From Flavobacterium sp. (GTDB lineage: Bacteria > Bacteroidota > Bacteroidia > Flavobacteriales > Flavobacteriaceae), in NCBI RefSeq assembly GCF_029945805.1, contig NZ_JAQSDH010000035.1, forward strand, positions 62,001 through 126,000: a stretch of DNA of 64,000 nucleotides, written 5' to 3'. Shown here one piece after another: positions 4,869 through 64,000 of the stretch. The notes under the pieces are model-generated. The model ran no database searches. It saw only the letters and a program-made list of their open reading frames with translations, and was not told the origin of the DNA. Positions within the stretch are counted from its first letter, which is position 1. Every line of letters begins with the position of its first letter. The translations under genes and the position numbers were made by a program.

Positions 4869-4878
4869 ACAGCGTGAT

Positions 4879-43379: not shown

Positions 43380-44117
43380 ATGAATGAATCAACAGTAACA
43401 AAAATGAAGCAAATGAAGCTCAATGGAATGTGTAATGCTTTTAAGACAGCCGTTGAAAGCGGTAAAACAGATCATTACACAATCGACCAATTTGTATCGA
43501 TTATAATCGATGCAGAATGGGATGAACGGCATAACAGACGAATCGAAAGAAGTATTAAAAATGCCCGATTCCATTACAAATCAAATATTGAAACCCTCAA
43601 TTTTGATGTCTCCAGAAATCTCGATAGAACTTTAATTCTACGATTGGCAGAATGTGAATTTGTAAAGAACAACCAAAATGTTTTAATCACAGGAAGCACC
43701 GGTGTTGGTAAGAGTTTTTTAGGTACAGCATTGGGTTATCAGGCCTGTATTGAGGGGTATAAAGTGAGTTATTTTAATACCTCAAAGCTGTTCGCCAAAT
43801 TAAAAATAGCTAAAGCCGACGGTTCTTATTTGAGAGAACTCGCTAAATTGGAAAGACAGGATGTTATCATTTTGGATGATTTTGGACTCCAAGCATTAGA
43901 CAGTCATAACCGAATTACGCTTCTGGAAATAATAGAAGATAGGCATAATAACGGCTCTATAATTGTCACATCACAAATCCCAGTTCAAGGATGGTATGAC
44001 ATCATTGGAGAAAAAGCTATTGCTGATGCTATTTTGGATAGACTCATACATCAATCTCATAGAATTGAGTTATTAGGTGAATCTATGAGAAAGAAAAGAA
44101 GCAATAACAACGTATAA
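43380..44117 (+). CDS. istB: IS21-family helper ATPase IstB
   Basis: 245 residues, AAA+ of the DnaC type. Walker A is ITGSTGVGKSFLGTA and Walker B is VIILDDFGLQAL; the sensor I segment IIVTSQIPVQGW also follows. It assembles IstA on target DNA. Full length, with no frameshift. Confidence 0.95.
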   Translation: MNESTVTKMKQMKLNGMCNAFKTAVESGKTDHYTIDQFVSIIIDAEWDERHNRRIERSIKNARFHYKSNIETLNFDVSRNLDRTLILRLAECEFVKNNQNVLITGSTGVGKSFLGTALGYQACIEGYKVSYFNTSKLFAKLKIAKADGSYLRELAKLERQDVIILDDFGLQALDSHNRITLLEIIEDRHNNGSIIVTSQIPVQGWYDIIGEKAIADAILDRLIHQSHRIELLGESMRKKRSNNNV

Positions 44118-46740: not shown

Positions 46741-47079
46741 ATGAAAAATTATTATTATTTATTTTTACTTAGTTTGCTTTTTTCATTTTCCAGTAATGCC
46801 CAAAAGGTTTTTTCTGCTGACTATGAGAATCAAGCAGATGTAAAGGTTTATGTGGTTAAATATGAAAATCAAGCAGATCTTTTAGTTTATAAAGTTGAGT
46901 ATGAAAATCAGGTAAGTGAAAATCAAGGTAAATGGTTTTTTACTAAATATGTCAATCAATCGAAAAAGAAAATATATTTTGTTAGTTATGAAAACCAAGC
47001 TGATTTGAAAATATATTTTGTAAAGTATGAAAATCAAGCTGGATGGAAAAATAAATCAAAAATGCAGTTGCTGTTTTGA
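46741..47079 (+). CDS. secreted YENQ-repeat protein (DUF6150)
   Basis: 112 residues with a signal peptide (LFSFSSNAQ). The mature part is made of about six copies of a 13-14-residue unit with the pattern YENQADxKVYxVK, one of which is degenerate (YVNQSKKKIYFVS). This is the DUF6150 family, common in Bacteroidota and of unknown function. The repeating alternation predicts a small all-beta stack. It is the only rightward gene between 45 kb and the right end. Confidence 0.85.
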   Translation: MKNYYYLFLLSLLFSFSSNAQKVFSADYENQADVKVYVVKYENQADLLVYKVEYENQVSENQGKWFFTKYVNQSKKKIYFVSYENQADLKIYFVKYENQAGWKNKSKMQLLF

Positions 47080-47087: not shown

Positions 47088-47891
47088 TCAATTTATATTA
47101 AATTCCATTTCGATTGGAATGTGGTCTGAAATTTTTCTTGCTTCTTGCAATGATGACCAAAATTTATAAAATGGAATGACTTGTGAATTTACAACTTTGA
47201 TTTTATTCTTATTATACCAAATGTTGTCGAACTCAGAAGCTAAACAATCATCATTATAGCAGTCTTTTTTTAAAGATGTTTTCTGATTGAAAAATACTGA
47301 TTCATACTCCATTTTTCTTAAAGGTATAAAAACAGTATGTGACTGTGGGCAGTTGAAATCGCCTAAAAAAATTAAATTTAGATCAGGATATTCAGTAGGT
47401 AAAAATTTGAAATATTTTATTTCAGTCTCAGGCTGTTTACTTTTAGTGATTGCATGGAAATTTGAAATAGTAAATTGTTTTTTATTGTATTCAAAAGTGG
47501 CAAAAAAAGGTTCTCTGTCTATTTCTAGGTTGTATTTTTGCTCTAACCATGCATCTCCAATTTTCTTAACTTTTGCAGTTTTCCATAGAAAGGCATAACG
47601 TTCCGTTTTGTATGCGCTGCTTGTTGTTGGGTCACTAATGGTGTAATCCCATTTCGAACCTTTTCGATTAAGTTCATCAGCAAGTCTCGCAACAGCTTGA
47701 GCACCACCATAACCTGCTACTACTTCTTGTATGGCAACTATATCGCCATCTTTAACCGTATTAGCAATAAAAACAATTGTAGAATCTGATTTGGATTTGC
47801 CAAAATTTTCAAGATTCCAGGAAATGACTTTTACTTGTGCATTCAAGATTAATGTAAAGAATAAAAAATAAAAGTATATTGCTTTTTTCAT
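47088..47891 (-). CDS. secreted endonuclease/exonuclease/phosphatase family protein
   Basis: 267 residues with a signal peptide (LILNAQ). The EEP (DNase I-like) motifs are present: SWNLENFG, AIQEVV, TERYAFLW, ISNFHAITKS, FLGDFNCPQ and KISDHIPIE. The catalytic His, Asp and Asn are all there, so a nuclease acting outside the cytosol is expected. Its start abuts the stop of the upstream gene, so the two are cotranscribed. Confidence 0.88.
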   Translation of the reverse strand: MKKAIYFYFLFFTLILNAQVKVISWNLENFGKSKSDSTIVFIANTVKDGDIVAIQEVVAGYGGAQAVARLADELNRKGSKWDYTISDPTTSSAYKTERYAFLWKTAKVKKIGDAWLEQKYNLEIDREPFFATFEYNKKQFTISNFHAITKSKQPETEIKYFKFLPTEYPDLNLIFLGDFNCPQSHTVFIPLRKMEYESVFFNQKTSLKKDCYNDDCLASEFDNIWYNKNKIKVVNSQVIPFYKFWSSLQEARKISDHIPIEMEFNIN

Positions 47892-48621: not shown

Positions 48622-50310
48622 TTAGTTACCATAATAAGCTGTAGTATCAACTGCTGCGGCTGCGGCAGTATCAACTGCTTCAACAGCTGTAGTATCAACA
48701 GCTGAATTGTCATAATTACTGGATGACTCCTCTGCTTTCTCTTGTATTTTATTTAAGTAACCCGATATATCAAAATCTTTATTAAGAATATGAATAAACA
48801 CAGTACTTGAATCGTTACTTGATGTAACTACAATATTTTTGTTACTCTTGTATACACTTGTGTAATTATTATTTACATAACCTTTCTTCATTAGATTATA
48901 CCCATTTAATTTTTTCTCAAACGCTTTTTGAACTGATTCTGCCTTTCCATTCGCTTTACCTGCTAACGATATAAAATAATAAAAACCTTGTGGTTTTATA
49001 TTGGTTGTTATTTTATTATAATTATAATCATAATCTACAAATTTCCCCAAAATGGCAAAGCCATAACTAGCTTCGTTATTAATAGTTTTATTTTCAAAAA
49101 TTGTAGTTGTATCTCTGAAAGCATTAAAATCAGAAACTGATTTTCCGGTTTTGTTTAAGATTGTTTGGAAATTATCTTCGAAACTTAAATTTTCAGGTTT
49201 ATCAACATTTATCACTTTTAATATTTTGTCAGTATCTAGATAGTCTGAAGTTATTGCTCCTTTACTACTAGAATCATACATGTAATAGATTAAATCTTCA
49301 CCAATTACATCAAACTGCGGATTTACTTTATATTTACCTTCTTTATCAATTAGTCCATATTTATCTCCAGATTTTACTATTGCCATTTTATTCATAAACG
49401 GAAATGCTTCATCAAATTGAGGGTTTATCATAATTTTACCTTCACCATCTACATAACCCCATTTATCCGAGCTCTTTATACAAGCTAATTTACTTTCACC
49501 AAAAAATAAAGCATCATCAAACTGTGGATTAATAATAAATTTTCCCTTTTCATCACACCATCCCCATTTGTCATCTTGATTTATTAAATATTTATCACTA
49601 TCAGCATAAGCATCTTTAAATTGAGGGTTAACTATATATTTCCCGTCCTCATCTATAACCCCTGCTTTGTCATCCAATTTAACAATAGCTTTATCGTCTT
49701 TAAAACGAAATGCACTATCAAATTGATGGTTTATGATAATTTTACCTGATTTGTCAATATATCCCCATTTACCATCTTTATTTTTTACTGCACATTTCCC
49801 ATCGTGAAATTCGCCAACTGCATCAAATTGAGGATTTATTACTTGTTTTCCTGATTTGTCAACAAAACCCCAAATTGTATTTGTAGAATCTACTTTTGAA
49901 AATGCTGCTAAGTCCTCAGAAAATAATCTAACTACTTCTGCATCTTTTAAAGTGAATTTTATTTCTCCTTTTTTATCAATAGCTGTAGGGGCTGAATTTT
50001 CAGAAACTACCCAAGCAATTCCTTCTTGAAAAACAGTGGCGTCTTTATAAGTAGCATTTATCGCAAATTTCCCATCTTTATCTATGTAACCCCATTTACC
50101 ATTTTCTCCGGTTGTTTTTACAAGAGCTAAATCTTCTCTAAAAGCTGTTGCTATTGCGAACTGAGGATTTATAACAATTTTGCCTTCTAAATCGAAGTAA
50201 CCATATTTGTCCTTTTGAGCATACGGAATTAATTCAATGTCTTTTGATGATTTAAAAAAACTGCATCCTACCAATAATAATGGCGCTATAATCATTAAAA
50301 TTTTTCTCAT
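48622..50310 (-). CDS. WG-repeat lipoprotein
   Basis: 562 residues. The lipobox IAPLLLVGC puts the lipid-bearing Cys at residue 16. Residues about 25-350 are eight to nine WG repeats of the form KWGYIDKDGKFAINPQFDxA, which form a beta-propeller-like or solenoid surface for binding. The C-terminal part (about 370-540) is unassigned, with an Ala/Thr-rich tail (VEAVDTAAAAAVDTTAYYG). It is the last gene of the tight leftward operon, 23 bp after the FN3-Lcl lipoprotein. Confidence 0.85.
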   Translation of the reverse strand: MRKILMIIAPLLLVGCSFFKSSKDIELIPYAQKDKYGYFDLEGKIVINPQFAIATAFREDLALVKTTGENGKWGYIDKDGKFAINATYKDATVFQEGIAWVVSENSAPTAIDKKGEIKFTLKDAEVVRLFSEDLAAFSKVDSTNTIWGFVDKSGKQVINPQFDAVGEFHDGKCAVKNKDGKWGYIDKSGKIIINHQFDSAFRFKDDKAIVKLDDKAGVIDEDGKYIVNPQFKDAYADSDKYLINQDDKWGWCDEKGKFIINPQFDDALFFGESKLACIKSSDKWGYVDGEGKIMINPQFDEAFPFMNKMAIVKSGDKYGLIDKEGKYKVNPQFDVIGEDLIYYMYDSSSKGAITSDYLDTDKILKVINVDKPENLSFEDNFQTILNKTGKSVSDFNAFRDTTTIFENKTINNEASYGFAILGKFVDYDYNYNKITTNIKPQGFYYFISLAGKANGKAESVQKAFEKKLNGYNLMKKGYVNNNYTSVYKSNKNIVVTSSNDSSTVFIHILNKDFDISGYLNKIQEKAEESSSNYDNSAVDTTAVEAVDTAAAAAVDTTAYYGN

Positions 50311-50333
50311 AAGTTTGATTTGTTTGTTAGTTT

Positions 50334-52412
50334 TTAAAAGTTTCTAATAGCTCTTACATACATTGAAGTAGATTTAGTACTTGTACTGCTTAACGTTCCT
50401 GTGCTAAAATTTATACTCCAAGCTGTTGTTGTACCAACTTGAGAGGAGCACCAATATGGAACATTACCAAAACCACCTATTGTTGTTTTATTTAAATAAA
50501 GTTTATTTAATTCATCTCTGCTTGGTAAATACCAATCCGTGTAACCGCCTGATGATAAATTATTACACAAAGCTGCTGCAATTGTTGTTGTAGTACATCC
50601 ATTTACTATTGCGCTTGTATTTGCTAATCCGGTTCCTAATGTTGTATTTGTTCCAGCTATTGAAGTTCCGGAACAACCCCATTGTACTCCCGTACTTTGA
50701 TTTGAGGTTGTTGCAATTAAGCCATGTGTTTGTCCAGTAACATAACCTGTATCGCCTGACGTGAATATATAAGCTATTATACCTCCTTGATAAGCTTGTC
50801 CAACTGCTAAGTTTGGAAGTGTTGTAAAAGTTAGTGTATTACCGTAGGCGGTACCCAAACTATTTGTTGCATACGCTCTAACATAATAAGTTGTATTAGC
50901 AATTAAACCTGTCAAAGAACTAGAATATGAAGTACTACCAGTGCCGTTATTTGTTATGCTATTTGAGGTTGTAGGAGTTGATGTAGTGCTACTCCAACAT
51001 ACTCCTTTTGCGGTAATAGTTGCTCCTCCGTTACTTGTGATAGTTCCACCACTACTAGCTGTAGTTTGTGAAATTGAAGAGAGACTAGTTGTGGTAATTC
51101 CTGTTGGAATTGTACCAGAAGAAGTTACAAAGGTTCTAGAGGAACCATAAGCGGTACCTACGCTGTTTGTTGCATAAGCTCTAACGTAATAAGTAGTTCC
51201 TGGTAATAAACCTGTTATTGCGCTAGAAAATGTTCCAATTCCAGAACCATCGATAGTTTTGGTATTTGCTATTGTTGGACTTGATGAAGTGCTCCAACAC
51301 ACACCGCGAGATGTAACTGTAGCACCACCATCTGTTGCTATATTTCCTCCACTTGATGCGGTTGTTTGTGTAATTAATGATAAAGTAGTAGTTGTTATAC
51401 CTGTGGGAATCGTAGCTGAAACAGTTGTAAAAGTAATAACATTACCATAAGCTGTTCCAACGCTATTAGTTGCATACGCTCTAACATAATAGGTTGTGCC
51501 CGGTGATAATGTTGTTAATGAGCTTAGAAATGCTCCAACACCTGAACCATTTATAGTTTTAGTATTTGCTATTGTTGGATTGGAGGATGTATTGCTCCAG
51601 CATACTCCACGAGATGTAATAGTAGCACCCCCATCATTATTAATGTTACCCCCACTTGAAGCCGTTGTTTGTGTCACAGCTGAAACTGAAGTAGTTGTAA
51701 TACCGACTGGAATTGTTGCGGTAGTAGTTGAAAATGATTTTACATCACCATAGGCTGTTCCTATACCATTTGTTGCATATGCTCTTATATAATATGTGGT
51801 GTTAGCCGTTAAACCGGTTAATGAACTTATAAAAGTGCCTATTCCTGTACCGTCATTTGTTTTTGTATTTGCAATTGTTGGAATTGTAGCAGTACTGCTG
51901 TAGCAAACCCCACGACTTGTAACATTTGAAGCACCACTATTAGTTATAATACCTCCTGTTGATGCTGTTGTAGCAGTGACTAAGTTTGCAGCTGTAGTTG
52001 ACGAAATAATAGGTACTGTTGCTTGTAATGTTGTAAATGTGACGGATAATCCATAAGCAGTGCCATAACTATTAGTTGCATAAGCTCTTGCGTAGTAAGT
52101 AGTACTTGGATCTAAATTATCTAAGGTACATGTGTAATTCCCTAGAGTTGCCGTGTTGAATACTTTTTTCAATCCAGAAATGGTAGGATTGTTACTGGTG
52201 CCATAACAAACACCTCTAGCAGACAAGCTAGCTCCATTGTCGGTTAATACATTTCCAGAAACATCGGCTGTTGTTTGCGTTACATTGTTAAACTCAACTG
52301 TCTTAACTGCATTTTGTAATTTCCCATAATCGAATTCATTGGTACAACTGATTATTAAGGTAAAAACACCTATTACAATTAATACTATTTTTGATTGGAA
52401 TACATTTTTCAT
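50334..52412 (-). CDS. lipoprotein with five FN3-like repeats and a C-terminal Lcl/DUF1566 domain
   Basis: 692 residues. Lipobox IISCTNEFDYG (Cys about 23). Five repeats of about 95 residues follow, each with RGVCY/W, then TTYYVRAYATNSVGTAYG, FN3-like modules common in Bacteroidota adhesins. The C-terminus (about 545-692) has YTDWYLPSRDELNKLY and YVRAIRNF, the Lcl/DUF1566 domain. The DNA repeats are highly similar, so copy number may vary. It is probably exposed on the outer membrane. It is 17 bp after the outer-membrane protein gene. Confidence 0.88.
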   Translation of the reverse strand: MKNVFQSKIVLIVIGVFTLIISCTNEFDYGKLQNAVKTVEFNNVTQTTADVSGNVLTDNGASLSARGVCYGTSNNPTISGLKKVFNTATLGNYTCTLDNLDPSTTYYARAYATNSYGTAYGLSVTFTTLQATVPIISSTTAANLVTATTASTGGIITNSGASNVTSRGVCYSSTATIPTIANTKTNDGTGIGTFISSLTGLTANTTYYIRAYATNGIGTAYGDVKSFSTTTATIPVGITTTSVSAVTQTTASSGGNINNDGGATITSRGVCWSNTSSNPTIANTKTINGSGVGAFLSSLTTLSPGTTYYVRAYATNSVGTAYGNVITFTTVSATIPTGITTTTLSLITQTTASSGGNIATDGGATVTSRGVCWSTSSSPTIANTKTIDGSGIGTFSSAITGLLPGTTYYVRAYATNSVGTAYGSSRTFVTSSGTIPTGITTTSLSSISQTTASSGGTITSNGGATITAKGVCWSSTTSTPTTSNSITNNGTGSTSYSSSLTGLIANTTYYVRAYATNSLGTAYGNTLTFTTLPNLAVGQAYQGGIIAYIFTSGDTGYVTGQTHGLIATTSNQSTGVQWGCSGTSIAGTNTTLGTGLANTSAIVNGCTTTTIAAALCNNLSSGGYTDWYLPSRDELNKLYLNKTTIGGFGNVPYWCSSQVGTTTAWSINFSTGTLSSTSTKSTSMYVRAIRNF

Positions 52413-52429
52413 TTTATCCTATTGTTTTT

Positions 52430-53554
52430 TTAATATTTATATTTTCCCTTAAGATTAAAGGATATACCAAATGTTATTTCAGGTTTATATAAATCTTTAT
52501 CAATATCCATTAATGCTGCTCCACCATTAATGTTTATCACTCTGGATACGCGAATCATTAACCCTGCGGTAGCGACTGAATATCCTGTTTTTTCTAAATT
52601 TACTTCACCCGAATAATCATTATTCATAATTCTATTATAATAACCATAACCGACTCCTATATTTAGATATATTCTTTTAAAAATTTTAAAGTTTGGACCT
52701 AATTCTATTTCGGTTTTATTTTCTGTTGCTTTACCGTTTAAAATATCTTCTTCAGATGTCAAACTTGTTCTTGCTGAAAAACGAAATCCAATTGTTTTTC
52801 TGCCACCACGTTCATAAATAAAACCATATTTTGCAATTTCTCCACTTTGAATACCTAAACTTGAGAATGAATTTAAGTGGCTCTTATTTTCACGATCTAC
52901 TTTTTTACTATATGCTTCTGCTTCTTTTGCTCTTTTCTCTTCAGCTTTTTCTTCAGCTGCTCTATTTAATTCTCTTTCTTTAGCAGCAGCTTCATTTCTC
53001 ACCCGTTCTTGTTCTAACCGTTCTTGTCTTTGTATTGCTTCTCTTTCCATCCTTGCTTTTGCCTCTACTTCCTCTTTTTCCTTTCGTAATTTGGCTTCAG
53101 CAGCTTCTTTTTCTTCCCTTTCTTTTTGCAATGCTTCTTCTCTAAGCTTTGCTTCTTTTTGAGCGTTGAAAGTTGCTAAGTCTTTTGGGTAGGTGTTTAG
53201 AATATTGTTCTCTTGTACTACTGCACTATAATTAAGATCTTTTTTTGAATTTGGATTTTTCAGATATTTATTAGTCAAATTTCTCGTACTAGTAATTAAA
53301 GCATAGTTATCTAAAGGATTGGTTTTAATTATTTCAGATTTTGCTAATATTTCCATCGATAAAACAAAAGGAGGAGGAGAATTTTTTTTAAACTCAATTT
53401 TTATTTCTTCAATTTTTTGGATTGTAGTTTCATAATCTTGCACATTAAATGCTTCAGAAGCCTCTTTAATGATGATTTTAACATCTTTTTTTTGAGCTAA
53501 AGAAATTTGAAATAACAAAAGAACTAATAGGGTAAGTGATGCTCTTTTTTTCAT
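52430..53554 (-). CDS. predicted outer-membrane protein with charged coiled coil
   Basis: 374 residues with a signal peptide (QISLAQ). A Glu/Lys/Arg-rich coiled coil spans about 130-225 (EKEAAEAKLRKEKEEVEAKA). The C-terminal part (about 230-374) alternates hydrophobic residues, as in a small beta barrel, and ends in an aromatic-rich strand (SFNLKGKYKY). It looks like a barrel with a periplasmic coil, which could link the outer membrane to the inner-membrane proteins of this operon. Confidence 0.7.
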   Translation of the reverse strand: MKKRASLTLLVLLLFQISLAQKKDVKIIIKEASEAFNVQDYETTIQKIEEIKIEFKKNSPPPFVLSMEILAKSEIIKTNPLDNYALITSTRNLTNKYLKNPNSKKDLNYSAVVQENNILNTYPKDLATFNAQKEAKLREEALQKEREEKEAAEAKLRKEKEEVEAKARMEREAIQRQERLEQERVRNEAAAKERELNRAAEEKAEEKRAKEAEAYSKKVDRENKSHLNSFSSLGIQSGEIAKYGFIYERGGRKTIGFRFSARTSLTSEEDILNGKATENKTEIELGPNFKIFKRIYLNIGVGYGYYNRIMNNDYSGEVNLEKTGYSVATAGLMIRVSRVININGGAALMDIDKDLYKPEITFGISFNLKGKYKY

Positions 53555-53569
53555 TTTTTTTTGAATATC

Positions 53570-54454
53570 TTATTTTTTATTCTCTAATTCTTTTGTTTTT
53601 ATTGGAGAATTTTCTTTTGAAGATTTATCATCTTCATTATTTTTTGTTACTTTTTCTTTAACTTCATCACATGGTTGCAAATCATCATCGGTATATCCAA
53701 CTACACTATTTTTAATTTTTTTTATAGTTTGAACTAGATATGGATAATCTTTATAATGTTCATCTTTTTCGAGAGCTGTATATTTTTGTTTCAAAATAGC
53801 GCTTTGGTCAGCTTTTTTATATGCATCTAAAGTTTTTTTCAACAAGCACGTGTTTTCTAAATAATTTTTTAAAACACTACTCATTCTCTTTTTTGTACTA
53901 TCTAATTTTGAATTTTCATCTAAAGCTGGTAGCATTTGAATTTCTTTTATTGCTTCATTTACTTTAACGGAATCATACTTTTCAAATATTACATCATTTC
54001 TAATTTGAAATAACTTTAAATAATTTTTGTTAAAATCTAATGCTTTATTACAAATTTCAAAGACCTCTTTATTTGTGTCATCTAATAGAATACTTCTTAT
54101 TAAAATGTTAGAGTTTTCAATTCGCGTTGATATATCATCAATAGCTAAATCTGTTTCCATTAAATATGGTTTGCTAACATATTTGTTATCAAAAATCTCT
54201 CTAAGAAAAACAGCATTTGTTTCTTTTATGCTTTTTTTGAGTTGTGCAATTTCTGCATTAGTTGATTTGGTTTGATTAGTTTCTAATTTCTCTTTTGCAG
54301 TTTTTTCACTTTCTAGTTTTTCTTTCAAACTTTTTAATTCTTTATCTTTAGAATTAATAGTATTTATTAATTCCTCTTTGCTTGATTTGGAATAATCTTT
54401 TTGAGCAAAAGAAAATGTTGATATCAAAATAATTAGCAGAAAATATTTTTTCAT
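53570..54454 (-). CDS. periplasmic coiled-coil protein of unknown function
   Basis: 294 residues with a signal peptide (STFSFAQKDY). A coiled coil covers about 25-85 (LKSLKEKLESEKTAKEKLE), then a helical domain (about 90-250) and a charged disordered tail (DDKSSKENSPIKTKELENK). No family recognised. Context suggests a periplasmic connector between the membrane proteins upstream and the outer-membrane protein downstream. Confidence 0.7.
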   Translation of the reverse strand: MKKYFLLIILISTFSFAQKDYSKSSKEELINTINSKDKELKSLKEKLESEKTAKEKLETNQTKSTNAEIAQLKKSIKETNAVFLREIFDNKYVSKPYLMETDLAIDDISTRIENSNILIRSILLDDTNKEVFEICNKALDFNKNYLKLFQIRNDVIFEKYDSVKVNEAIKEIQMLPALDENSKLDSTKKRMSSVLKNYLENTCLLKKTLDAYKKADQSAILKQKYTALEKDEHYKDYPYLVQTIKKIKNSVVGYTDDDLQPCDEVKEKVTKNNEDDKSSKENSPIKTKELENKK

Positions 54455-54473
54455 GGTTTTTTAGTTTATAAAA

Positions 54474-55160
54474 TTATTCAGTTGGCACACCAGCAGTAGC
54501 CCAATCAGTATTAAATTGAGCTAATTCATTGATTAATCTTGTTTTAATATTATTGAATAAGGGCTTAGCTCTATATTTTGGTTGTAATTTTGGCATGTTG
54601 TCAATTTCATTTTTAAAGCTATAATAAAGAGTATCATTATAGTTTGTAATGCCCGGTGATATAAAACTGTCTACTTTATTGGGCAAGGTTTCAGAATAAT
54701 ATATGTAAGCATTTATTTGTCCTCGATAATAATCTATAGAACTATTTCTGGATGTGATACTTTCTAATTGACTAAGCCAATTTAAAACATCTGTACTTGT
54801 ATTCATAGTATTCCCAGTCAGATAAAATTCACACCTGTTGTACACTAAATTTGAGTATACAGTAGTCAAATTTGATATTAGATTAGCTTTTGCTGAACTG
54901 TTGATTAATCCTTGTTCATACGAAGCATCAATCGCAGTTGCCAATGTATTGTAACTATTTGGATCAAAATTCTGATTTTTTAAAATGTCAATTTTATTTT
55001 CTAAGTCTTTGAAATTTGTATTGGCCTGCTCATCTATTATTTCTACGCCCTGAACATCGTTATTCTCTACTAGTATGAGAACTCCAACTATTAAAACCCC
55101 AATAATCATTGTTGCTGCTAAAAAAACAAGACTTCTATTTTTTTCTGTTATTTTTATCAT
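54474..55160 (-). CDS. single-pass membrane protein with periplasmic helical domain
   Basis: 228 residues. The N-terminal helix (about 12-31; VFLAATMIIGVLIVGVLILV) is an uncleaved anchor, and the rest is helical and extracytoplasmic. No domain recognised. Stop and start of the upstream gene are 4 bp apart, so translation is probably coupled. Confidence 0.7.
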   Translation of the reverse strand: MIKITEKNRSLVFLAATMIIGVLIVGVLILVENNDVQGVEIIDEQANTNFKDLENKIDILKNQNFDPNSYNTLATAIDASYEQGLINSSAKANLISNLTTVYSNLVYNRCEFYLTGNTMNTSTDVLNWLSQLESITSRNSSIDYYRGQINAYIYYSETLPNKVDSFISPGITNYNDTLYYSFKNEIDNMPKLQPKYRAKPLFNNIKTRLINELAQFNTDWATAGVPTE

Positions 55161-55164
55161 ACTA

Positions 55165-56601
55165 TTATATTTTGTTAGGATCTACTTTTTCACCATTATT
55201 ATTTTGATTATTTTGTTTTGGTGCATTTTTCGGTTTGCCAGTCTTTGGTTTAGTTACAATTGGAGCCACATTTTTAGGTTTGCTTTCTTGTTTCCTATCC
55301 TCAGTCGAATGAATAATTATTATCTCTTTATCAGGTATCCTTTGTCCTGATATTTTCTCTAGATTTTGTAAAAACTCATTTTTTTTGTTGCTATCAAAAA
55401 CTAAAGATTCGTTTTTTAATATTTCGTCTAGATTAGTACTGTAAAAATCAGCATATTTACTTTTATCTTTATTATAAGTCCATTTTTCATTATCTAATTT
55501 GAAATGGTATTTCTCTAGTTTAGGGTAAGAGGTTATATAAACAGTAGTGTCTCTAATAGACCTATCTATTTCAAATGTTATTTCTGAAGCTGTTGGATTT
55601 GCATTTTGATTAGCCTCATTGTTAGAAATTGGTGTTGGTTCTGGTTCCGGTACAGCATTATCTTTTATAAAAATAAACCAACTTCCAACTCCCAGAGCCA
55701 CAATCATTATTACCATTATAAAATACAGACCATACGTTTCAAAAAAACTAGCTTTTTTTGGTCCTTTTGGTCGGGATGGCGAAGGTGGAGCTGTGTATTT
55801 TCTCTCCACATAAATCATTGAACCTACAGCTTGTTTGAATTTTGGATTGTCAGTAGTATTATATTCTATTTCATCTTCCTTTTTTAGTATTAATACTAAT
55901 TCATTATCATTTTGATTAAATTCTACAGGAACATTATTTACTTTTAGTTCCTTTAGAATTCTATAATTGTTATTTATTAAAACTTCTTTAAAATTGGTTC
56001 TTACTTCTTCGAAAGATTTCAATCCTAGTGATTTAATAATGTCGGTTGAAACCGCATTTTCTTTATTGAAAGCATACATTTTATTAAATAAACCAACAGC
56101 TTTATGATTAAATAAACCGCTTAATTGCGGATTATTACCATCATAAAGGCAAAATGCTACTTCATTAGTGTTAGTGGTTATAAAGTTTGCTTGATTTACT
56201 TCTAGCGGTAAATCATATTTTAGTAAATTATTGTACTCTTGATTGTTTTTTAAAGTACCTGTACTTTCAAACTCGAGATACTTTTTATTAATTTGTTGAA
56301 GTATTACTTCAAAGTTGGCTAATGGATATTTTTTTGGCGTATATAGTCTAATGGCGTAAAAACCTGCTCTACCAAATGAATCAGTAGCATCAGTAATAAC
56401 CAATGAATATACTCTATAATTTGGAGTTATTTGAAATGTATATACATCAGATTGGTTTGCCAATTTTGTAGCATATTTATTTTCATCGTCTGTAGTTTTT
56501 TCAATTTCAGGAGTTCTTCTAATTTCTTTTAAATTATCTGAAACAAACATATCGTTCAAACCCGAAGTAGTTCTTTGTATTATTAGTCCGAATAAATTCA
56601 T
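55165..56601 (-). CDS. single-pass membrane protein with large cytoplasmic domain
   Basis: 478 residues. The N-terminal 270 residues are soluble and cytosolic (FYAIRLYTPKKYPLANFEVI, EVAFCLYDGNNP), with mixed alpha/beta character. A Pro-rich linker (PPSPSRPKGPKK) precedes one helix (about 290-312), then a periplasmic domain (about 330-440) and a Lys/Pro/Asn-rich tail. It follows the GTPase gene by 11 bp, so the cytosolic half could be the GTPase's partner. No known family seen. Confidence 0.7.
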   Translation of the reverse strand: MNLFGLIIQRTTSGLNDMFVSDNLKEIRRTPEIEKTTDDENKYATKLANQSDVYTFQITPNYRVYSLVITDATDSFGRAGFYAIRLYTPKKYPLANFEVILQQINKKYLEFESTGTLKNNQEYNNLLKYDLPLEVNQANFITTNTNEVAFCLYDGNNPQLSGLFNHKAVGLFNKMYAFNKENAVSTDIIKSLGLKSFEEVRTNFKEVLINNNYRILKELKVNNVPVEFNQNDNELVLILKKEDEIEYNTTDNPKFKQAVGSMIYVERKYTAPPSPSRPKGPKKASFFETYGLYFIMVIMIVALGVGSWFIFIKDNAVPEPEPTPISNNEANQNANPTASEITFEIDRSIRDTTVYITSYPKLEKYHFKLDNEKWTYNKDKSKYADFYSTNLDEILKNESLVFDSNKKNEFLQNLEKISGQRIPDKEIIIIHSTEDRKQESKPKNVAPIVTKPKTGKPKNAPKQNNQNNNGEKVDPNKI

Positions 56602-56612
56602 TTTATATTAGA

Positions 56613-57815
56613 TTAATTAAAAATTTTATTAGCTCCACCACTTATAATAAAAGAATCGTTTGTGATTTGATTGAGTATTGTTTTTGCAAAATCTCTATCT
56701 AATGTATTCAGTATGGAACCATAAGATAAACTTCCGATTGAGAATGGTATTACTTTGATTTTAATACTGTTTTTTGTATCCTTTCTAGCAGCAATACAAT
56801 TATTTTTTAAGCTTAAAAATTCATCGTTTAAAAATTCAAGTGCAATGTCACCATTCGGTCTATCGTCGAATGGGTACTTTGATTCCTTTATTGCATCGAA
56901 TTTATTTACTACTAAATAAATTGCATCTGTTTGTTCTAAAACACCATTTGTATTAAATATTTGGAGGATGTTTGGAAATACAACTGACTGATCAAATTTA
57001 CTTATTGACTCCGTATTTTCATGTTCTAATGAATCTATGACGAATATTAAAATCTTTTTATTTTTGTTATTGATGTATTTTAAAAATTTATCTACTTCAG
57101 CATTACCTTGTATCTTTTCATATAATTCGCCGGGAACATCAACAATATTTAGAGGATGTCTTTTATTATTGGGATCATTAATAGAGGCCGCTATATAATT
57201 GTATGAACCCACATCTGTTCGTTCTGGCAAAACACCTCTATTTAAATCTTGTATTAAATCTGTTTGAAAATTCACCCCTGCTGCGTGATATGGATCTGGT
57301 AGCAATACCCCAGTTTTGTGAGCTACATTTAACAAACCTGCAATCATTGTTGATTTACCAGAACCAGGAAGTCCTATAAAGTAAACATCTGTACGACCTT
57401 CTTCCATTGGAGGAAGTTGCTCTATCGTGTAACTTTTAGTTATTTTATCGGCACTACAATAATATTTTAGAGCGTTAGCCGTTTTTAAGGGCAAACCAGC
57501 TTCGGTAATATCTTCAAACGTAATTACTCTTTTGTTTATCAATCCTTTTATTTCATCAGCTATGATTTTTCCTTTTAAGATTCTATCTAAATGAACTGTT
57601 TTTTGATTTTTTAAATCTTCATTCTCTAATTCTATTTTCTCCTTTTGAATAGCTGCTTTTAATTCATTTTTGACACTTTCAACTTTTGTAGCATCTAATC
57701 CCGCATTTATGAATTCATCTATGGTAATGTCTCCTTTTTTTATGATGTTTACTATGCTATCTATATCAATATTATTACAATTAAGTAAAATATTATTTTT
57801 TTGAACTTCAGTCAT
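56613..57815 (-). CDS. P-loop GTPase of the TRAFAC type with duplicated N-terminal helical motif
   Basis: 400 residues. Residues 18-60 and 86-120 are two copies of a helical unit (IIKKGDITIDEFINAGL; LINKRVITFEDITEAGL). The GTPase core follows: G1 FIGLPGSGKSTMIAGLL (147-), G3 IVDVPGE (224-230) and G4 VVNKFDA (303-309). NKxD indicates guanine specificity. It has no membrane segment. It resembles the regulatory GTPases of NTP-dependent conflict systems described by Aravind and colleagues more than translation or Ras-like GTPases. The gene lies between two membrane-protein genes. Confidence 0.8.
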   Translation of the reverse strand: MTEVQKNNILLNCNNIDIDSIVNIIKKGDITIDEFINAGLDATKVESVKNELKAAIQKEKIELENEDLKNQKTVHLDRILKGKIIADEIKGLINKRVITFEDITEAGLPLKTANALKYYCSADKITKSYTIEQLPPMEEGRTDVYFIGLPGSGKSTMIAGLLNVAHKTGVLLPDPYHAAGVNFQTDLIQDLNRGVLPERTDVGSYNYIAASINDPNNKRHPLNIVDVPGELYEKIQGNAEVDKFLKYINNKNKKILIFVIDSLEHENTESISKFDQSVVFPNILQIFNTNGVLEQTDAIYLVVNKFDAIKESKYPFDDRPNGDIALEFLNDEFLSLKNNCIAARKDTKNSIKIKVIPFSIGSLSYGSILNTLDRDFAKTILNQITNDSFIISGGANKIFN

Positions 57816-57833
57816 GATTTCTTTTTTAACTAA

Positions 57834-58802
57834 TTAAATTTCTCTAACATTTTCTATTGCTAATGGATCCATATCATTAGATTTAACATAGTCCACAATT
57901 CTCCATGTAAAAAATGGAATCAAAATGAATAAATGCGTAAGAATAATGAAAACTGTTGGAATCATATAATTTGGTTTGTATTCAATATTTAGCTTAGTTG
58001 GGCTATTTAGAGGAAGTTGCTTTTTATCAAATACAAGTTTAATCTCAGTTTTATTTAAAGGTAGTTCTCCTATCTTTGAATTAATTGATTTTACATTGGC
58101 TTCTACATATTGATTTAATTTAGCATAAGTGGCCACTAAGCTTAAGCGTTTCCAATTATCAAAAACACTTTGGTAATTCTTATTATTAATACTGATGGTT
58201 TTATCAATATTCTCAATATTCTTATTAATCTTAATATCATATGGATTTACTTTAGCACTTGCTACTTCATTCACATTTATATAGTCAGGATTACTTAAAA
58301 TGCTAACTTCTACTTTGTAAGAACCGTTTACTAATTCTTCCCTTAGTTTAATGCTTTTGGTGGTTTTATAATCTCTTAGTTTATTTTTTAGTTGTGAATC
58401 AAAACTCTGAAGGTCATCATGGGCTCTTTTTTTATAAATAGAGGCAATACTATCGACTAATTTTATTTTGTAAGTAGCCTCTTTTTTAATCTGGTCTTTG
58501 CAATTGTATTCCACATTGATAAAATGTGACATCAAATTAAAACTCACAAATCCTAGTAGCAAGAAGAAAATCCAAAAAAGTGATGATGGATGTAAAAAGT
58601 TTTTTTTAATCATTAATTCCTTGTTTTTCTTTAAAAATTGTACAACAAAGAAGTAGCATATTACAAGGAACATACTGCCCAACATGCTTATAACTAAATT
58701 ACCATCTGTGATGTATAATAGCCCCATAAAATTACCTATTAGGATTACTAATAAAAAGATTGAGGATATAATGTCTACGAATAAAAAGTTTTGTTGTTTC
58801 AT
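57834..58802 (-). CDS. four-helix inner-membrane protein with large periplasmic loop
   Basis: 322 residues. Three N-terminal helices (about 9-30, 35-54, 74-94) and one near the C-terminus (about 276-296) enclose a periplasmic domain of 180 residues. No motif of a known transporter. It is encoded 18 bp before the GTPase gene, and is a plausible membrane docking platform. Confidence 0.72.
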   Translation of the reverse strand: MKQQNFLFVDIISSIFLLVILIGNFMGLLYITDGNLVISMLGSMFLVICYFFVVQFLKKNKELMIKKNFLHPSSLFWIFFLLLGFVSFNLMSHFINVEYNCKDQIKKEATYKIKLVDSIASIYKKRAHDDLQSFDSQLKNKLRDYKTTKSIKLREELVNGSYKVEVSILSNPDYINVNEVASAKVNPYDIKINKNIENIDKTISINNKNYQSVFDNWKRLSLVATYAKLNQYVEANVKSINSKIGELPLNKTEIKLVFDKKQLPLNSPTKLNIEYKPNYMIPTVFIILTHLFILIPFFTWRIVDYVKSNDMDPLAIENVREI

Positions 58803-58837
58803 TAATTTAATTGATTTGTTTGTATTTACTTTTATTG

Positions 58838-60256
58838 TTAATTAATACTGCTCACAATATCTATAATTTTAATATTGTTTTTTGTTATTGTGTTAGCATC
58901 CAGTATTTTTAGTATTTCCTGATTTGAAATATTTTTATTTTTTGATTTTATTAAACCTATCAAACCTGAAATAATTGGAGCAGCCATACTAGTGCCTTGA
59001 AGTACTTCGTAACTGTTACCAGGTTTTGCGCCATAAATATTTGTTCCGGGAGCATAAATGGTTGTATAATTACCAAAATTTGAAAATCCCGCTTTTATAC
59101 CATTTTGATTTACAGCCCCGACTTTTATTGTTGATTTTGCTCTTTGGAATGGGTCAAACCCTGTTAAAATATTGCTATTACCTGCCGCTAAAACACAGGT
59201 TACCTTTTTCTCACTAGCATAGTTAAATAAATCATCCCAAAATTCTGTTTCATCTTTAGCACTCGAATTTATGTATTCTTTTTGCCTTTCGAGTGGGATA
59301 TTTAAACCCATTGGAATCTGCATCCCAAGCGATAAATTCACTACATCTGCTTTATTTTTGATGGCGTAAAGTATGGCATCTATAATATAAGTATTGGACA
59401 CCATGCCGTTTTGATCTTCCACTTTGATTGGCATGAATGAACATTCTGGACAAATGCCAACTAGTCCTTGATTGTTATTTCCATTAGCAACAATAGTTGA
59501 GGTAACATGCGTTCCGTGATTTTCTTTACTTGGACTTACATTTTCCGATTTATCAATCACATTATATGGTTTAACTGCTTTTCCAACTAATTCCGGATGA
59601 TTTAAGTCGAAACCATTATCAATTACTGCAATTACAATTTTTTTATCTCCAGTAGTTTGATCCCAAGCTTTATTAATATTTATTGCTTTTAAATACCAAC
59701 TAGCGCTATTGTCTTTTAATTTAGGATCGTTAAAAGTTTTGACATAATCAAATAATGTTTCGTCCCAAACTAATAGTTTGTATTGGTTTAATTTTGCTTT
59801 TACTTCAGTTTTAAAATTGACTCTGTCTTTATCAGGAAGTTGTACTTGTAAACGATTCACAACGCTATCGATGTAGACAATTTTATATTCGTCTGAAGGA
59901 TATTTTTGTTTTAGTTCATTAGCAAACTTTGCAATAGAATTTGATGTGTTTTTAATTGCAATATTTACTAGATTAGAAACAATTCTTCTTTGATTTAGTG
60001 TGTCGTTAATGATTTTAGTAGTATCAATAGGATTGATTTGAGCAGCTTGTTCTGGTAAGTATTCTTGATGCCAGTATTCTTCTTCAGTGTTTGGTCTGTC
60101 AATAAAAACACGGTCTACAATTCTTTGAATATTTGTTTGTTCGTTGCCATTTGAATTTTTGTTAAATCCAAAAACTATTACCCAAAAGAGTATCGCCAAT
60201 AGTAACATTAGAAACAGAATAAGAAAATACCGAAATGGAAATTTATTAGTTTGCAT
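58838..60256 (-). CDS. membrane-anchored subtilisin-family (S8) serine protease
   Basis: 472 residues. One N-terminal helix (about 9-30) anchors the protein, and a helical region (35-180) may be a propeptide or linker. The S8 domain has Asp213 (IAVIDNGFD), His247 (NHGTHVTS), the oxyanion Asn360 (LAAGNSN) and Ser423 (LQGTSMAAP), so it should be active. The domain is predicted to be outside the cytosol. Its start overlaps the end of the upstream gene by 11 bp, showing coupling. It is the obvious effector or processing enzyme of the operon. Confidence 0.9.
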   Translation of the reverse strand: MQTNKFPFRYFLILFLMLLLAILFWVIVFGFNKNSNGNEQTNIQRIVDRVFIDRPNTEEEYWHQEYLPEQAAQINPIDTTKIINDTLNQRRIVSNLVNIAIKNTSNSIAKFANELKQKYPSDEYKIVYIDSVVNRLQVQLPDKDRVNFKTEVKAKLNQYKLLVWDETLFDYVKTFNDPKLKDNSASWYLKAININKAWDQTTGDKKIVIAVIDNGFDLNHPELVGKAVKPYNVIDKSENVSPSKENHGTHVTSTIVANGNNNQGLVGICPECSFMPIKVEDQNGMVSNTYIIDAILYAIKNKADVVNLSLGMQIPMGLNIPLERQKEYINSSAKDETEFWDDLFNYASEKKVTCVLAAGNSNILTGFDPFQRAKSTIKVGAVNQNGIKAGFSNFGNYTTIYAPGTNIYGAKPGNSYEVLQGTSMAAPIISGLIGLIKSKNKNISNQEILKILDANTITKNNIKIIDIVSSIN

Positions 60257-60866
60257 TATAGTTGTATTTTATTAATTCTATCATTTCATCTTGTTGACTA
60301 ATGGTTTTTGAAATCTCTTTAACGATTTTCCCTTTTTTTCTGACTATTAATTTAACGTTTACAGGACTTGTTTCTCTTTTTTCAAAAGCTTTTACACGGG
60401 CACTGTAAATCCCATTTGGAGGCGTACATTTAAAATAAATATTTTCTACAGGCTGGTCAGTATCTATACCTTCTGCGTTTAAATCAATATCTAATTGTCC
60501 GCCAGCACTTGAAAATTGGTTGTCTTGGCTTTTGCAATATTTTTTATACCATATATGATTGCTTTTTGCATCAATAACATCCAAATCTAGATCATCTGTT
60601 GAGTTCCAAATTAGTGTAAAACTAAGACACCCAAATTCTCCTTTATTATCAATTACTCTAATGGAATCACTAACAATTGCATTTCTTGCATTACAACAAT
60701 CGTCAAGTCGTTTATTAATTGTATTAATTCTATCGTTTGTATTACTCCAGTTATTTCGACATAATACTGCATAAATGAGTAATCCCAATAAGAAAAAGAA
60801 TACCAGATAGTATAACCACCAATACTTATAAAAAAAAGATTTTATATTTTGTGTGTTCAAATTCAT
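60246..60866 (-). CDS. single-pass protein with YfaP/DUF2135-like domain
   Basis: 206 residues. One helix near the N-terminus (about 14-36; WWLYYLVFFFLLGLLIYAVL), then a coil ending in RLDDCCN, then a beta domain with TLIWNSTDDLDLDVIDAKS and PNGIYSARVKAFEK. The DLDLDV and NGxYxARV pattern is that of YfaP (DUF2135). The WWL helix followed by a Cys-ending coil is also seen in the upstream 271-residue protein. Together the two recall the layout of SrfA (anchor plus this domain); that link is inference. Confidence 0.7.
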   Translation of the reverse strand: MNLNTQNIKSFFYKYWWLYYLVFFFLLGLLIYAVLCRNNWSNTNDRINTINKRLDDCCNARNAIVSDSIRVIDNKGEFGCLSFTLIWNSTDDLDLDVIDAKSNHIWYKKYCKSQDNQFSSAGGQLDIDLNAEGIDTDQPVENIYFKCTPPNGIYSARVKAFEKRETSPVNVKLIVRKKGKIVKEISKTISQQDEMIELIKYNYNAN

Positions 60867-60876
60867 TTATGCTTTG

Positions 60877-61692
60877 CTAGTTACCACAGTCATTTGCTTT
60901 TTGTTCTAACTGATTTAGTTTCGTATTGATGTCGTTATAATTATCACTACAATCACATGATTTTAATAATAGAAAGAAAATTATCAGTAATAATAACAAC
61001 CAAAGCAACCACCAAAAATTAGAAGCGAACCATTTTAAGAATTTCAAAAAACTTGATTCTTCAACGGGAATAACTCCTTGAACTTCTTCAGTTGGAATCT
61101 CTTCACTATTTTCGTCTTCTAAAGGGATGTCATCAACTATTGGTTCTGTATAATCATCTACCTGCTCAATTTCATTTTCTTTATTTATTATTGGAACATT
61201 CTCAATTGCTGCATTCCTGTCAGGATACAAAAAAGTATTAGGTGTTTTTGAAATATTTGGTTTATAATTTTCGTTGTTATTAAACTTCCAACCCCATACA
61301 ATACATATGTCTTTTCCGTTAGAGAAAATAAAATTATCGTTAGAATTGAATACTTTAGCTAGAAGATTAGCCCAATTCTTATTATTTTCATCGCTAGAAC
61401 ATGAAAGTTGGCTTATTTTAGCATTGATTACCTCAATAAATTGCCAATATTTCGCCAATTCATTTTCTGATTCTTCTTTGCTTTTCCCATTGATATTTAC
61501 TAAATTTTCATGAACCGAGAACCAATCAAAGACATAACCATTTTGAACTGGTTTAGCTAAAATATTTTTATAATTCTTTTCAAGATTAAATGCCAAAAAA
61601 TTAGCCACCTTATCATAATGATTGAACAAATAACTGTTATCATGTGATATTGGAATAAACGTATCAGTTGGTATTTGGTGGAATTTATTCAT
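60877..61692 (-). CDS. C-terminally anchored protein, possible SrfA-like N-terminal half
   Basis: 271 residues. An N-terminal cytosolic domain (1-150) has ICIVWGWKFNNNENY, then an acidic linker (VDDIPLEDENSEEIPTEEVQ) and a WWLLWLLLLLIIFFLLL helix (about 229-246). A short coil NTKLNQLEQKANDC ends the protein, matching the coil after the helix of the next gene's product. The gene is 4 bp after the SrfC-like gene. Confidence 0.65.
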   Translation of the reverse strand: MNKFHQIPTDTFIPISHDNSYLFNHYDKVANFLAFNLEKNYKNILAKPVQNGYVFDWFSVHENLVNINGKSKEESENELAKYWQFIEVINAKISQLSCSSDENNKNWANLLAKVFNSNDNFIFSNGKDICIVWGWKFNNNENYKPNISKTPNTFLYPDRNAAIENVPIINKENEIEQVDDYTEPIVDDIPLEDENSEEIPTEEVQGVIPVEESSFLKFLKWFASNFWWLLWLLLLLIIFFLLLKSCDCSDNYNDINTKLNQLEQKANDCGN

Positions 61693-61696
61693 AAAA

Positions 61697-64000
61697 TTAA
61701 TTTAATTTGAATTCGTTAAAATCATTAATTAATTCTTTTAACTGATTGTTAGCTTGCTCATCATAACTTACAAAGCCACAATTAACTAGCAACGAAATTC
61801 TAAAAAATTCAATCCATTTATTGTATTTGTCTAAAACAATTCTATTTGAATTGGATACTTCGTCAGAATTATTTTCAAATAAGCCCTGAATGGTTTTTTG
61901 ATCTGTTGGTATCGTTTTATTATAAAATTTAAAGTTGCTATTTGACTTTAAATTATCAATTTCGATTAATTCTTCAGTTGTAAAGTAGTTGATGTCAAAG
62001 TTGATTACAATTTCATTGATTAATAAAGAGAAGGTCTCTGCCAGAAATTCTTCGACACCACGATTTGTATTTGTTTCTGAAACTACATCATTTAATATTC
62101 GTTCCAATTTATCTTTTAAACCTCTGTTTTCAATTATTTTAGATAGATGGTTAGCAAGAAAAGAAGTGCTGTTTTGACTCAATCCGTTATTAATAAAATA
62201 TTCTAAATTAGATTGATTGGTAATTTTTGACTCCCAATAATTTAACAATAATTCTGTATAAAATTGTGCTTTGGATTTGGTTTCCTTATTTGTGAAAAGA
62301 TTTTCTTTTTTAATACCTTTTTCTGAAAGAAAAGATTCCACTTCCTGATTAGAAGATAGCCATAAGTTTTGTTTTAAAATTTCTATAACTTCTTCATAAG
62401 AATTGACATTTCTCAATTCGGGATATTGTGACATTAATATATTTCCTTGATTAAAATTATCTAAACTCTTTTCATTTATGTTTACTACAATATTTTCATT
62501 TAGTAAATTATAAATTTCAACAGGCTCTACAGATACTCGTTTAATTAATTGATTGAAACCATTTATATCTTTTGTCAAAATTGCGTTGAATGAAAATTGA
62601 ATTTCATTCACACTTTTCATACTATTGGCTCTTAAAATAGTTAAATCATCAGTATGGATGTGTTTGTTTAACTCTCTTTTTAAATCAATAACCAGGTTGT
62701 TTAATTTATTGATATAATGATTTGTTTTGGTCAAGTTATTTGAAACTTGCGTTAAATTATCAATAATTAACTCCGAACCATCATTGTTTAAATTCGCTGC
62801 TATATTCCAGCTGTTTGCGGGAGAATCAAAATGATTCTGAACAAATTTGAAGTTTAAGAAAGATTCTTTTAATTTATCTAAAAAAGGACTTCTTTCTTCT
62901 CTTACTTTAATTTCATATCCTTTTTCTTCAAATCCATCGAAAGAATCTGTTGAATATTTGAAATCTCTTAACAAATAAAAGTTTTTGAAATTTTGTTGGT
63001 CTTTTGTCCAATCAATGTGCCAGTCTTTTGTTTGTGTTACAATTTCATTTTCAAAAAAGCGGTTGAATCGCGTGTCCCATTTATAGTCTAATTTCTGAAC
63101 ATCATTTGCATATTCAAAATCATTTGTTGTGTCAAATTTTAACTGATTATTAAAAAATGTAAAAATGATAAATAAAGGAGGCACATTAGCATCTTTAAGA
63201 GCATTGTTTCTATCATAAGCATTACCACCAATATTTTTTGATATCCAATTGAATAATAATGATGGAATTTCGTTGACATCTAATTGCTTGTCATTTGTAC
63301 AAAACAAAAGATTGTTGATATTGAAATCATCAGAATATTTGTTGAATAAATACGAAACCTTTCCACGCAATAACATATCCGGAATAATTTCATCGTCTAC
63401 ATCTTCAATTTCTATTGCTAATCTGCTTCTTGCTCCGGGGAAATCTAATAAATCAGAATTTTTTAAAAATTCTTTGCTATCTGTAAGTTCGTTTGGAATA
63501 GAGAAAACAAGTTCGGCAGTAAGAGCAGTTATTAAAGATAAATTGATTTTTATTTCCTCGCCATTCTCTTTTTTTATTGTTGTAAATTTATTGCAAGTGT
63601 ATAATTCTTTTAGTCGCTTTACATCTAATACTTCTCCTTCGCCTCTAAGTACTTCTTTAAATGATAAATAGGCCACTGCATCAAAATTAACAGTTTTTAA
63701 GTCGGATATTAACTTTGAAAAAAGGGCTGAAAAATGGTCGTTTTTATTCCATAATACCTCAAAAATTGCTTTCCATTCCTGATACTCAAAACCATCAATA
63801 ATTTTCCCAATACGTTCAAAGAAACGCGATTCATTTAATCCTTCAAATAGAATTGTGTGTTTGCTTAAATGATTTTCAAAATATTCTTTAATTTCTAAAA
63901 TATCATATTCTGAAAGAATGGTTTGTTTTGAATTGGAATAATTAGATTCGAAATTCTTAATGTGAATATCTAGCTCCTTATTTTTATCAAAATTTGTTAT
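61697..64000 (-). CDS. SrfC-like large protein, GTPase-type motif (5' end beyond the window)
   Basis: The frame stays open to the right edge: 108 codons lie upstream of the GTG at 63674-63676, so at least 767 residues are visible and the start is outside. It has LLDFPGARSRL, a DxPG G3-like motif, followed by LLRGKVSYLFNKYSDDF, a segment found in the SrfC family of putative virulence proteins. The strand LFIIFTFFNNQLKF lies where a TKxD/NKxD G4 would be, but is degenerate. G1, if any, is outside the window. The rest is helical. It heads the visible part of the operon. Confidence 0.6.
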   Translation of the reverse strand: MTNFDKNKELDIHIKNFESNYSNSKQTILSEYDILEIKEYFENHLSKHTILFEGLNESRFFERIGKIIDGFEYQEWKAIFEVLWNKNDHFSALFSKLISDLKTVNFDAVAYLSFKEVLRGEGEVLDVKRLKELYTCNKFTTIKKENGEEIKINLSLITALTAELVFSIPNELTDSKEFLKNSDLLDFPGARSRLAIEIEDVDDEIIPDMLLRGKVSYLFNKYSDDFNINNLLFCTNDKQLDVNEIPSLLFNWISKNIGGNAYDRNNALKDANVPPLFIIFTFFNNQLKFDTTNDFEYANDVQKLDYKWDTRFNRFFENEIVTQTKDWHIDWTKDQQNFKNFYLLRDFKYSTDSFDGFEEKGYEIKVREERSPFLDKLKESFLNFKFVQNHFDSPANSWNIAANLNNDGSELIIDNLTQVSNNLTKTNHYINKLNNLVIDLKRELNKHIHTDDLTILRANSMKSVNEIQFSFNAILTKDINGFNQLIKRVSVEPVEIYNLLNENIVVNINEKSLDNFNQGNILMSQYPELRNVNSYEEVIEILKQNLWLSSNQEVESFLSEKGIKKENLFTNKETKSKAQFYTELLLNYWESKITNQSNLEYFINNGLSQNSTSFLANHLSKIIENRGLKDKLERILNDVVSETNTNRGVEEFLAETFSLLINEIVINFDINYFTTEELIEIDNLKSNSNFKFYNKTIPTDQKTIQGLFENNSDEVSNSNRIVLDKYNKWIEFFRISLLVNCGFVSYDEQANNQLKELINDFNEFKLN

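Follow-up and report, generated by a model that had tools for sequence, protein, structure and literature searches.

Analysis of a 64,000-nucleotide stretch of DNA from Flavobacterium sp. (NCBI RefSeq assembly GCF_029945805.1, contig NZ_JAQSDH010000035.1), here called the window and comprising bases 62001–126000 of a 202,644-base contig in a genome of 3.33 Mb, revealed an expanded SrfABC operon in which the Srf proteins are encoded together with an S8 serine protease, a Double-GTPase and further membrane proteins. A nine-gene core (SrfB, SrfC, SrfA, P4, S8 protease, P6, GTPase, P8 and P9), with its order kept apart from small losses, recurs among Bacteroidota, Flavobacterium and Sphingobacterium included, and a Runella plasmid carries it with some of the genes fused; as the same gene order is found in other genomes, the arrangement is more than chance. 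The joining of SrfA to the protease, the predicted dynamin-like nature of SrfC and the coupling of a Double-GTPase to a putative longin protein lead to the concrete hypothesis that these proteins may form a membrane machine inside the producing cell.

All named genes at 48622–64000 are present on the minus strand and closely spaced, as the original prediction of a packed leftward operon had described (gaps of 4–35 bp and one 11-bp overlap). The run extends beyond the window edge on the same contig, where SrfC (61697–64477, of which 61697–64000 lie inside the window) is followed by SrfB (64480–67497 in window numbering, to the right of the window), so that the SrfB-like gene suspected there was indeed found. 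Since the intergenic gaps from P13 to SrfB are small (23, 17, 15, 19, 4, 11, 18, 35, −11, 10, 4 and 2 bp), these genes likely form one transcript; promoter and terminator scans gave no signal above the level of shuffles.

SrfB and SrfC were recognized far above their cut-offs, SrfB by PF07520 (E 9.3e-159, 530.8 bits against 27.1) and SrfC, for which only a likeness had been proposed, by PF10139 (E 3.8e-74, 250.9 bits against 28.1). In a 1006-residue reading, SrfB carries the stretches VIDIGNSATC at 258, SIDIGAGTTD at 571 and VLSGKP at 769, which may represent the phosphate-1, phosphate-2 and adenosine motifs of the actin/Hsp70 fold. Alignment to a DnaK with hhalign (E 0.011, probability 3.7%) covered the adenosine motif only, and a profile search of the PDB gave no match of SrfB to this fold. 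For SrfC, the motifs GxSQVGKSYL, V[TS]RF (T in 55 rows, S in 2) and DLLDFPGAR, presumably G1, a G2-like motif and G3, are kept in 57 of 57 aligned rows. The predicted SrfC model (predicted local distance difference test 85.1) had dynamin-like GTPases as its best structural matches, and we therefore regard SrfC as a predicted dynamin-like GTPase with a G domain and a helical stalk fold. A search of open-access papers returned nothing connecting SrfC with dynamin or with DO-GTPase, or SrfB or SrfC with phage defence.

Profile comparison further places P3 (60877..61692, minus strand), whose SrfA domain is predicted to be cytosolic ahead of a transmembrane segment at 225–243, in the SrfA family, an assignment that is new here. 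The SrfA of Ewingella was matched by the P3 profile at E 9e-8 and by the S8 profile at 2e-11, and a profile built from the Bacteroidota SrfA domain alone scored it at 32.2 bits, the best of 1000 shuffled targets (331 listed) reaching 3.8. With the same profile, two of four proteins encoded upstream of SrfB on a Gluconobacter plasmid scored 18.4 and 14.0, the other two not being among the matches listed. The NCBIfam SrfA model (NF040486) matched the S8 proteins of Runella (2.5e-24) and of a second Bacteroidota genome, G215 (4.1e-22), P3 and the S8 protein of locus L012 (1.6e-12 and 1.6e-6) and each of the four from Gluconobacter (3e-9 to 4e-4), every match lying under the curated 150-bit cut-off and the best Bacteroidota row reaching 86.5 bits; the P3 of the window was not listed at E<=1, and the S8 protein of L016 was also unmatched.

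The best SrfA stretch lies ahead of the S8 domain in the Runella protein (20–231) and behind it in the G215 protein (674–820), each protein holds one further SrfA stretch, and the two align end to end. Thus, the subtilisin of these two proteins is set between the N- and C-regions of SrfA. In copies of the L012 type only the N-part of SrfA is fused to the protease, and Flavobacterium encodes P3 and P5 separately. The original prediction of a SrfC-like protein, with a SrfB-like gene suspected to the right of 64000, holds; SrfA also proved to be part of the block, and the S8 protease is tied to SrfA and is not an unrelated addition. P5 itself (58838..60256, minus strand) is a membrane-anchored S8 protease (PF00082, E 5.4e-47), in which D213, H247, S423 and N360 do not vary among the 12 copies aligned (those of L014 and G840 not being included), in line with the active-type subtilisin that had been foreseen; the region between its transmembrane segment and catalytic domain resembles a prodomain by eye.

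P7 (56613..57815, minus strand) is a GTPase of the Double-GTPase 1 type (PF19975, DO-GTPase1; E 6.9e-9, 35.8 bits against a cut-off of 27), so that the proposed combination of a GTPase and a protease in a trans-envelope layout stands. All 20 rows of the alignment retain its motifs GxxGSGKST, [DE][VI]PGE and NK[FY]D. Next to it, P8 (55165..56601, minus strand) is predicted to carry a cytosolic longin domain (residues ~1–135), a fold of GTPase regulators whose position beside a Double-GTPase is new here, followed by a transmembrane segment (294–312) and a predicted periplasmic C-terminus. Because of this fold and its adjacency to P7, P8 is a candidate regulator of P7. At E<=1, Pfam listed no GAP1 partner among ten proteins of the window or among 15 members of P8, the P8 listing covering 25 of 27 families and the presence of GAP1 models in the Pfam copy being unconfirmed.

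The remaining core genes, likewise on the minus strand, encode P4 (60246..60866), with one transmembrane segment (18–36) followed by a predicted periplasmic domain and present in one to three copies in relatives, P6 (57834..58802), a multi-pass membrane protein with hydrophobic segments at 11–29, 31–49, 70–88 and 280–298 and a large, predicted periplasmic loop (89–279), and P9 (54474..55160), with a single transmembrane segment (13–31) and a predicted periplasmic domain. Five anchored inner-membrane proteins had been counted before; a Kyte-Doolittle scan corrects this to six (P3, P4, P5, P6, P8 and P9). The predicted topology places SrfB, SrfC and the switch GTPase with its putative longin partner on the cytosolic side, the six membrane proteins in the inner membrane, the protease and coiled coils at its outer face, and changing surface proteins beyond.

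Scanning one genome per species (84,980 species) with the GTPase alignment yielded at least 12 loci, in Flavobacterium, Sphingobacterium, Algoriella, Profundicola, Frigoriflavimonas and metagenome-assembled genomes. Comparison of 14 loci (the window, G215 and 12 from the GTPase scan) revealed that P6 and P9 are present in all 14, as is the GTPase (by construction in 13), P4 in 13 (absent in G215), SrfA in 13 as a gene of its own and in G215 as a fusion with S8, the S8 protease in 12 loci, and P8 by profile in nine, the other five holding a 607–681-aa open reading frame in that position. SrfB adjoins the block in 13 of 14 loci; in L013 the contig starts inside P3, and a second contig of this genome terminates with SrfB, SrfC and the beginning of P3. 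Co-occurrence is regular, each of the 12 genomes listed by the GTPase scan also holding SrfB. Neither outcome that had been named as refuting the original prediction, rare co-occurrence of the genes or a lack of SrfC homology in profile searches, was therefore observed.

SrfB alone led to three Bacteroidota loci, in G215, on the Runella plasmid and in G840, and the GTPase is in place in the first two. In G840 there is no GTPase in place; a caspase-domain gene lies directly upstream of SrfB, and a protein of 969 aa that matches DO-GTPase2 weakly (E 0.0026, under the cut-off) lies beside an AAA ATPase. There (L049–L051), SrfB-SrfC-SrfA/S8 is convergent to a set with the AAA ATPase and weak CHAT and DO-GTPase2 matches. 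In samples that overlap, SrfB occurred in one of 60 genomes taken as relatives, namely that of the window, in two of 392 genomes of the phylum and two of 298 of the family of G215, and the GTPase in two of 395 genomes of the order. These results suggest that the block spread horizontally, since it is rare, syntenic and once plasmid-borne.

The outer-membrane arm of the operon (P10–P13, all on the minus strand) is a variable tail outside the conserved core. P10 (53570..54454; coiled coil, signal peptide by eye) has a clear homologue in seven of 14 loci and a weak one in G215. P11 (52430..53554; coiled coil, signal peptide by eye), found in seven loci, shows only a weak barrel signal (OMP_b-brl, E 0.0047, below the cut-off), which leaves its proposed barrel-like character tentative. 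P12 (50334..52412) combines FN3 repeats and an Lcl_C domain (PF00041, 1.1e-12; PF07603, 1.6e-11) and occurs in five loci, a count that may include look-alikes as FN3 repeats are common, and P13 (48622..50310; WG repeats, PF14903, 2e-68) is confined to this locus, one of 14. Both have lipoprotein-type signals with a lipobox pattern, in agreement with the predicted surface lipoproteins, which prove to lie in the tail and not in the core.

Between P9 and P10, Flavobacterium gillisiae (L006, 13439–16105) has three added genes, encoding a weak zinc-ribbon/SH3 protein, an L,D-transpeptidase (YkuD) and an RDD membrane protein. Just downstream of the block in the window, 47088–47891 (minus strand) encodes a protein of the endonuclease/exonuclease/phosphatase fold that, by eye, has a signal peptide and whose G215 counterpart (L018, ~4049–4891; 43% identity over 261 residues, E 1.7e-59) lies upstream of SrfB. 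Further genes are a small protein with VKYENQAD-type repeats and a signal peptide by eye (46741–47079, plus strand) and the IstB of an IS21-type element (43380–44117, plus strand), ~4.5 kb from the 3' end of the block.

Divergent to SrfB at the window locus, we found a defence island with genes for type I restriction-modification, a pair of ThsB-type TIR proteins, a SLOG protein and AbiEi/AbiEii. On stretch L002 (7682–10125), two ThsB-type TIR proteins frame a SLOG-cluster-3 protein, and the trio is bordered by a type I specificity gene on one side and a gene matching PADLOC HEC-05 on the other, a Thoeris-like set within a type I restriction locus. Within 20 kb of the block, HsdM-type methylases (PF02384, E<=1e-20) are present in five of the 14 genomes, where 0.53 would be expected (p 8e-5), and within 10 kb in four, where 0.35 would be expected (p 2e-4), with cut-off, ranges and rounded genome sizes chosen after the table was seen and the p-values weakened because the three Flavobacterium copies may share history. 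This test is the sole statistical claim; in descriptive terms, eight of 11 loci looked at have defence neighbours, namely ThsB and AbiE at the window locus, BREX just upstream of the block in Runella, a type II methylase near L008 with DarG ~20 kb away, type I genes near L005, L006 and L009, an AbiL/AriA-like ATPase at L011 and Mokosh MkoC at L010. Loci L013–L016, with too little flank, were excluded from this count, and the PADLOC scan did not include G840. For the eight stretches first judged negative, the flank scan covered 51 of 87 open reading frames (150–1099 aa, M start), excluding the L018 part of the G215 upstream flank; ten flank proteins were picked by eye, nine from 231 flank open reading frames and one from L009, of which one of 1589 aa gave no match.

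From this genomic context and from family knowledge, we tentatively propose, as the simplest way in which the parts could work together, that the expanded SrfABC operon encodes a membrane-surveillance and remodelling machine with a role in defence, which would reshape or seal the inner membrane once phage or another agent has breached the envelope, a reading we favor while rating it somewhat short of an even chance. The variable exported proteins and lipoproteins P10–P13 would sense the outer envelope, and P3/SrfA, P4, P6, P8 and P9, which share the block and whose topology is predicted, could relay the signal over the inner membrane. The longin domain of P8, to judge by its fold and position, may then set the nucleotide state of P7, which would license SrfB and SrfC to assemble on the membrane, and the S8 protease, predicted to be periplasmic, might cleave a target in the envelope or switch the complex on; two Sphingobacterium copies (L010 and L011) lack the protease, so the core can do without it. 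The response of the machine to an attack could be to repair, to block or to kill. The Bacillus dynamin DynA is reported to cause a delay in phage lysis and to form clusters at the membrane (PMC8844932), and SrfBC elsewhere likewise lies beside trans-envelope signalling genes (PMC3608642 and, in our reading, Gluconobacter). The defense reading would give SrfABC a testable job, and the Flavobacterium copies are open to a gene-removal test.

Several observations weigh against this proposal. No phenotype was found for any Bacteroidota copy, and SrfB and SrfC match none of the PADLOC 2.0.0 families, the match of the S8 protease to a generic subtilase model there (5.9e-21) not being specific. In the partial flank scan, L007, L012 and G215 (three of 11) were without a defence neighbor, three loci are Flavobacterium and perhaps not independent, and proximity to defence genes can reflect shared mobile elements. 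The longin match of P8 is moderate (best Foldseek E 5e-3). For SrfC, sequence profiles alone found no dynamins, and the template-modelling scores of its model are low against full-length BDLP (0.19/0.24) and stand at 0.24/0.51 against the mitofusin 1 core. Finally, Xenorhabdus SrfABC is described as a cytotoxin (PMC6950479), and SrfBC of Deltaproteobacteria accompanies host association (PMC3608642).

A general envelope-stress repair system, sensing damage by antibiotics, osmotic shock or toxins and mending the membrane with no special phage link, would equally employ the predicted dynamin-like SrfC and longin P8; a DO-GTPase has been linked to membrane stress in published work, and the Gluconobacter neighbors of SrfBC, in our reading, recall TagRST. 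The very patchy distribution of SrfB and the defence-gene neighbours, however, are unusual for a housekeeping stress system, and we consider this explanation serious but unlikely. Somewhat less probable still is contact-dependent export or surface remodelling, in which SrfB and SrfC would power assembly and the protease would mature tail proteins for display or release. It would account for the variable exported tail adjoining a fixed core and for the YkuD transpeptidase in the L006 tail; the fold of P8 also matches TagF, a type VI secretion protein, and the best NCBIfam match of the S8 protein, below that model's cut-off, is mycosin, a secretion-linked protease. Yet channel, pilus or needle families were not listed for the operon proteins scanned, and the two copies lacking the protease speak against it. 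A toxin or virulence operon, as the SrfABC names, the reported Xenorhabdus cytotoxicity and relatives in genera able to live with animals (the GTPase in Empedobacter falsenii, SrfC in an uncultured Capnocytophaga) would suggest, appears very improbable, given that SrfA-type proteins carry a hydrophobic segment (no more than marginal in Ewingella at 1.54 and in Runella at 1.57) and that SrfC is a predicted GTPase for which no signal peptide is seen by eye, both atypical of exported toxins, and that the Runella copy is of freshwater origin.

Beyond the membrane-sealing defence proposed for the Bacteroidota operon, SrfABC as a whole could be an ancient envelope-spanning immune machine that remodels membranes, in which SrfB would be the actin-type ATPase, SrfC the dynamin and SrfA a transmembrane protein able to carry its own subtilisin, with exchangeable switch modules (Double-GTPase and longin in Bacteroidota, TagRST/PpkA in Proteobacteria), an extension that we regard as speculative and rather doubtful. 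If true, it would be the first bacterial defence organelle to combine dynamin, longin, GTPase and actin-like components, a toolkit that elsewhere serves membrane traffic in eukaryotes.

Comparison with known systems revealed partial likenesses. With the predicted DO-GTPase/GAP1 conflict systems (Kaur et al. 2020, PMC7159879), the operon shares a Double-GTPase, membrane proteins and variable parts. The same paper names Hsp70 and FNIII companions and a glutamate at the Walker B position, where P7 (residue 226) has D in 11 rows and E in nine; 'srf' is absent from the main text, and no GAP1 partner was recognized among the families listed here. As in PMC3608642 (2013, oral bacteria), which calls the function of SrfABC still unclear although databases label it a virulence factor, a trans-envelope signalling set stands beside SrfB and SrfC; in host-associated Deltaproteobacteria this is TagQRST/PpkA with a Hap-like surface protein, and a kinase and an ABC transporter do the signalling, whereas here it is the Double-GTPase with the putative longin protein, and the Pfam scan listed no kinase or ABC-transporter family for the operon proteins of the window. 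On the Gluconobacter plasmid (L022, 6038–21793), four SrfA-type paralogues precede SrfB-SrfC, which are followed by a sel1-annotated gene, a vWA gene, an ABC ATPase, a hypothetical gene (membrane-like by eye) and SUMF1. The predicted fold and GTPase motifs of SrfC resemble those of the bacterial dynamin-like proteins BDLP, IniA, SynDLP, LeoA and DynA, but identity in structural alignments is only ~8–16%, and SrfC is accompanied by SrfB and SrfA instead of a second dynamin. The names SrfA–G in PMC11258249 denote unrelated rickettsial factors. Closest is SrfABC of Enterobacteria (NF040486, PF07520, PF10139), whose three families stand side by side here too, in the order B-C-A instead of A-B-C; the Ewingella plasmid holds the three Srf genes only, its SrfC being without the DxPG motif kept in Bacteroidota rows, while the block described here adds the S8 protease, the Double-GTPase, the putative longin protein P8, P4, P6 and P9.

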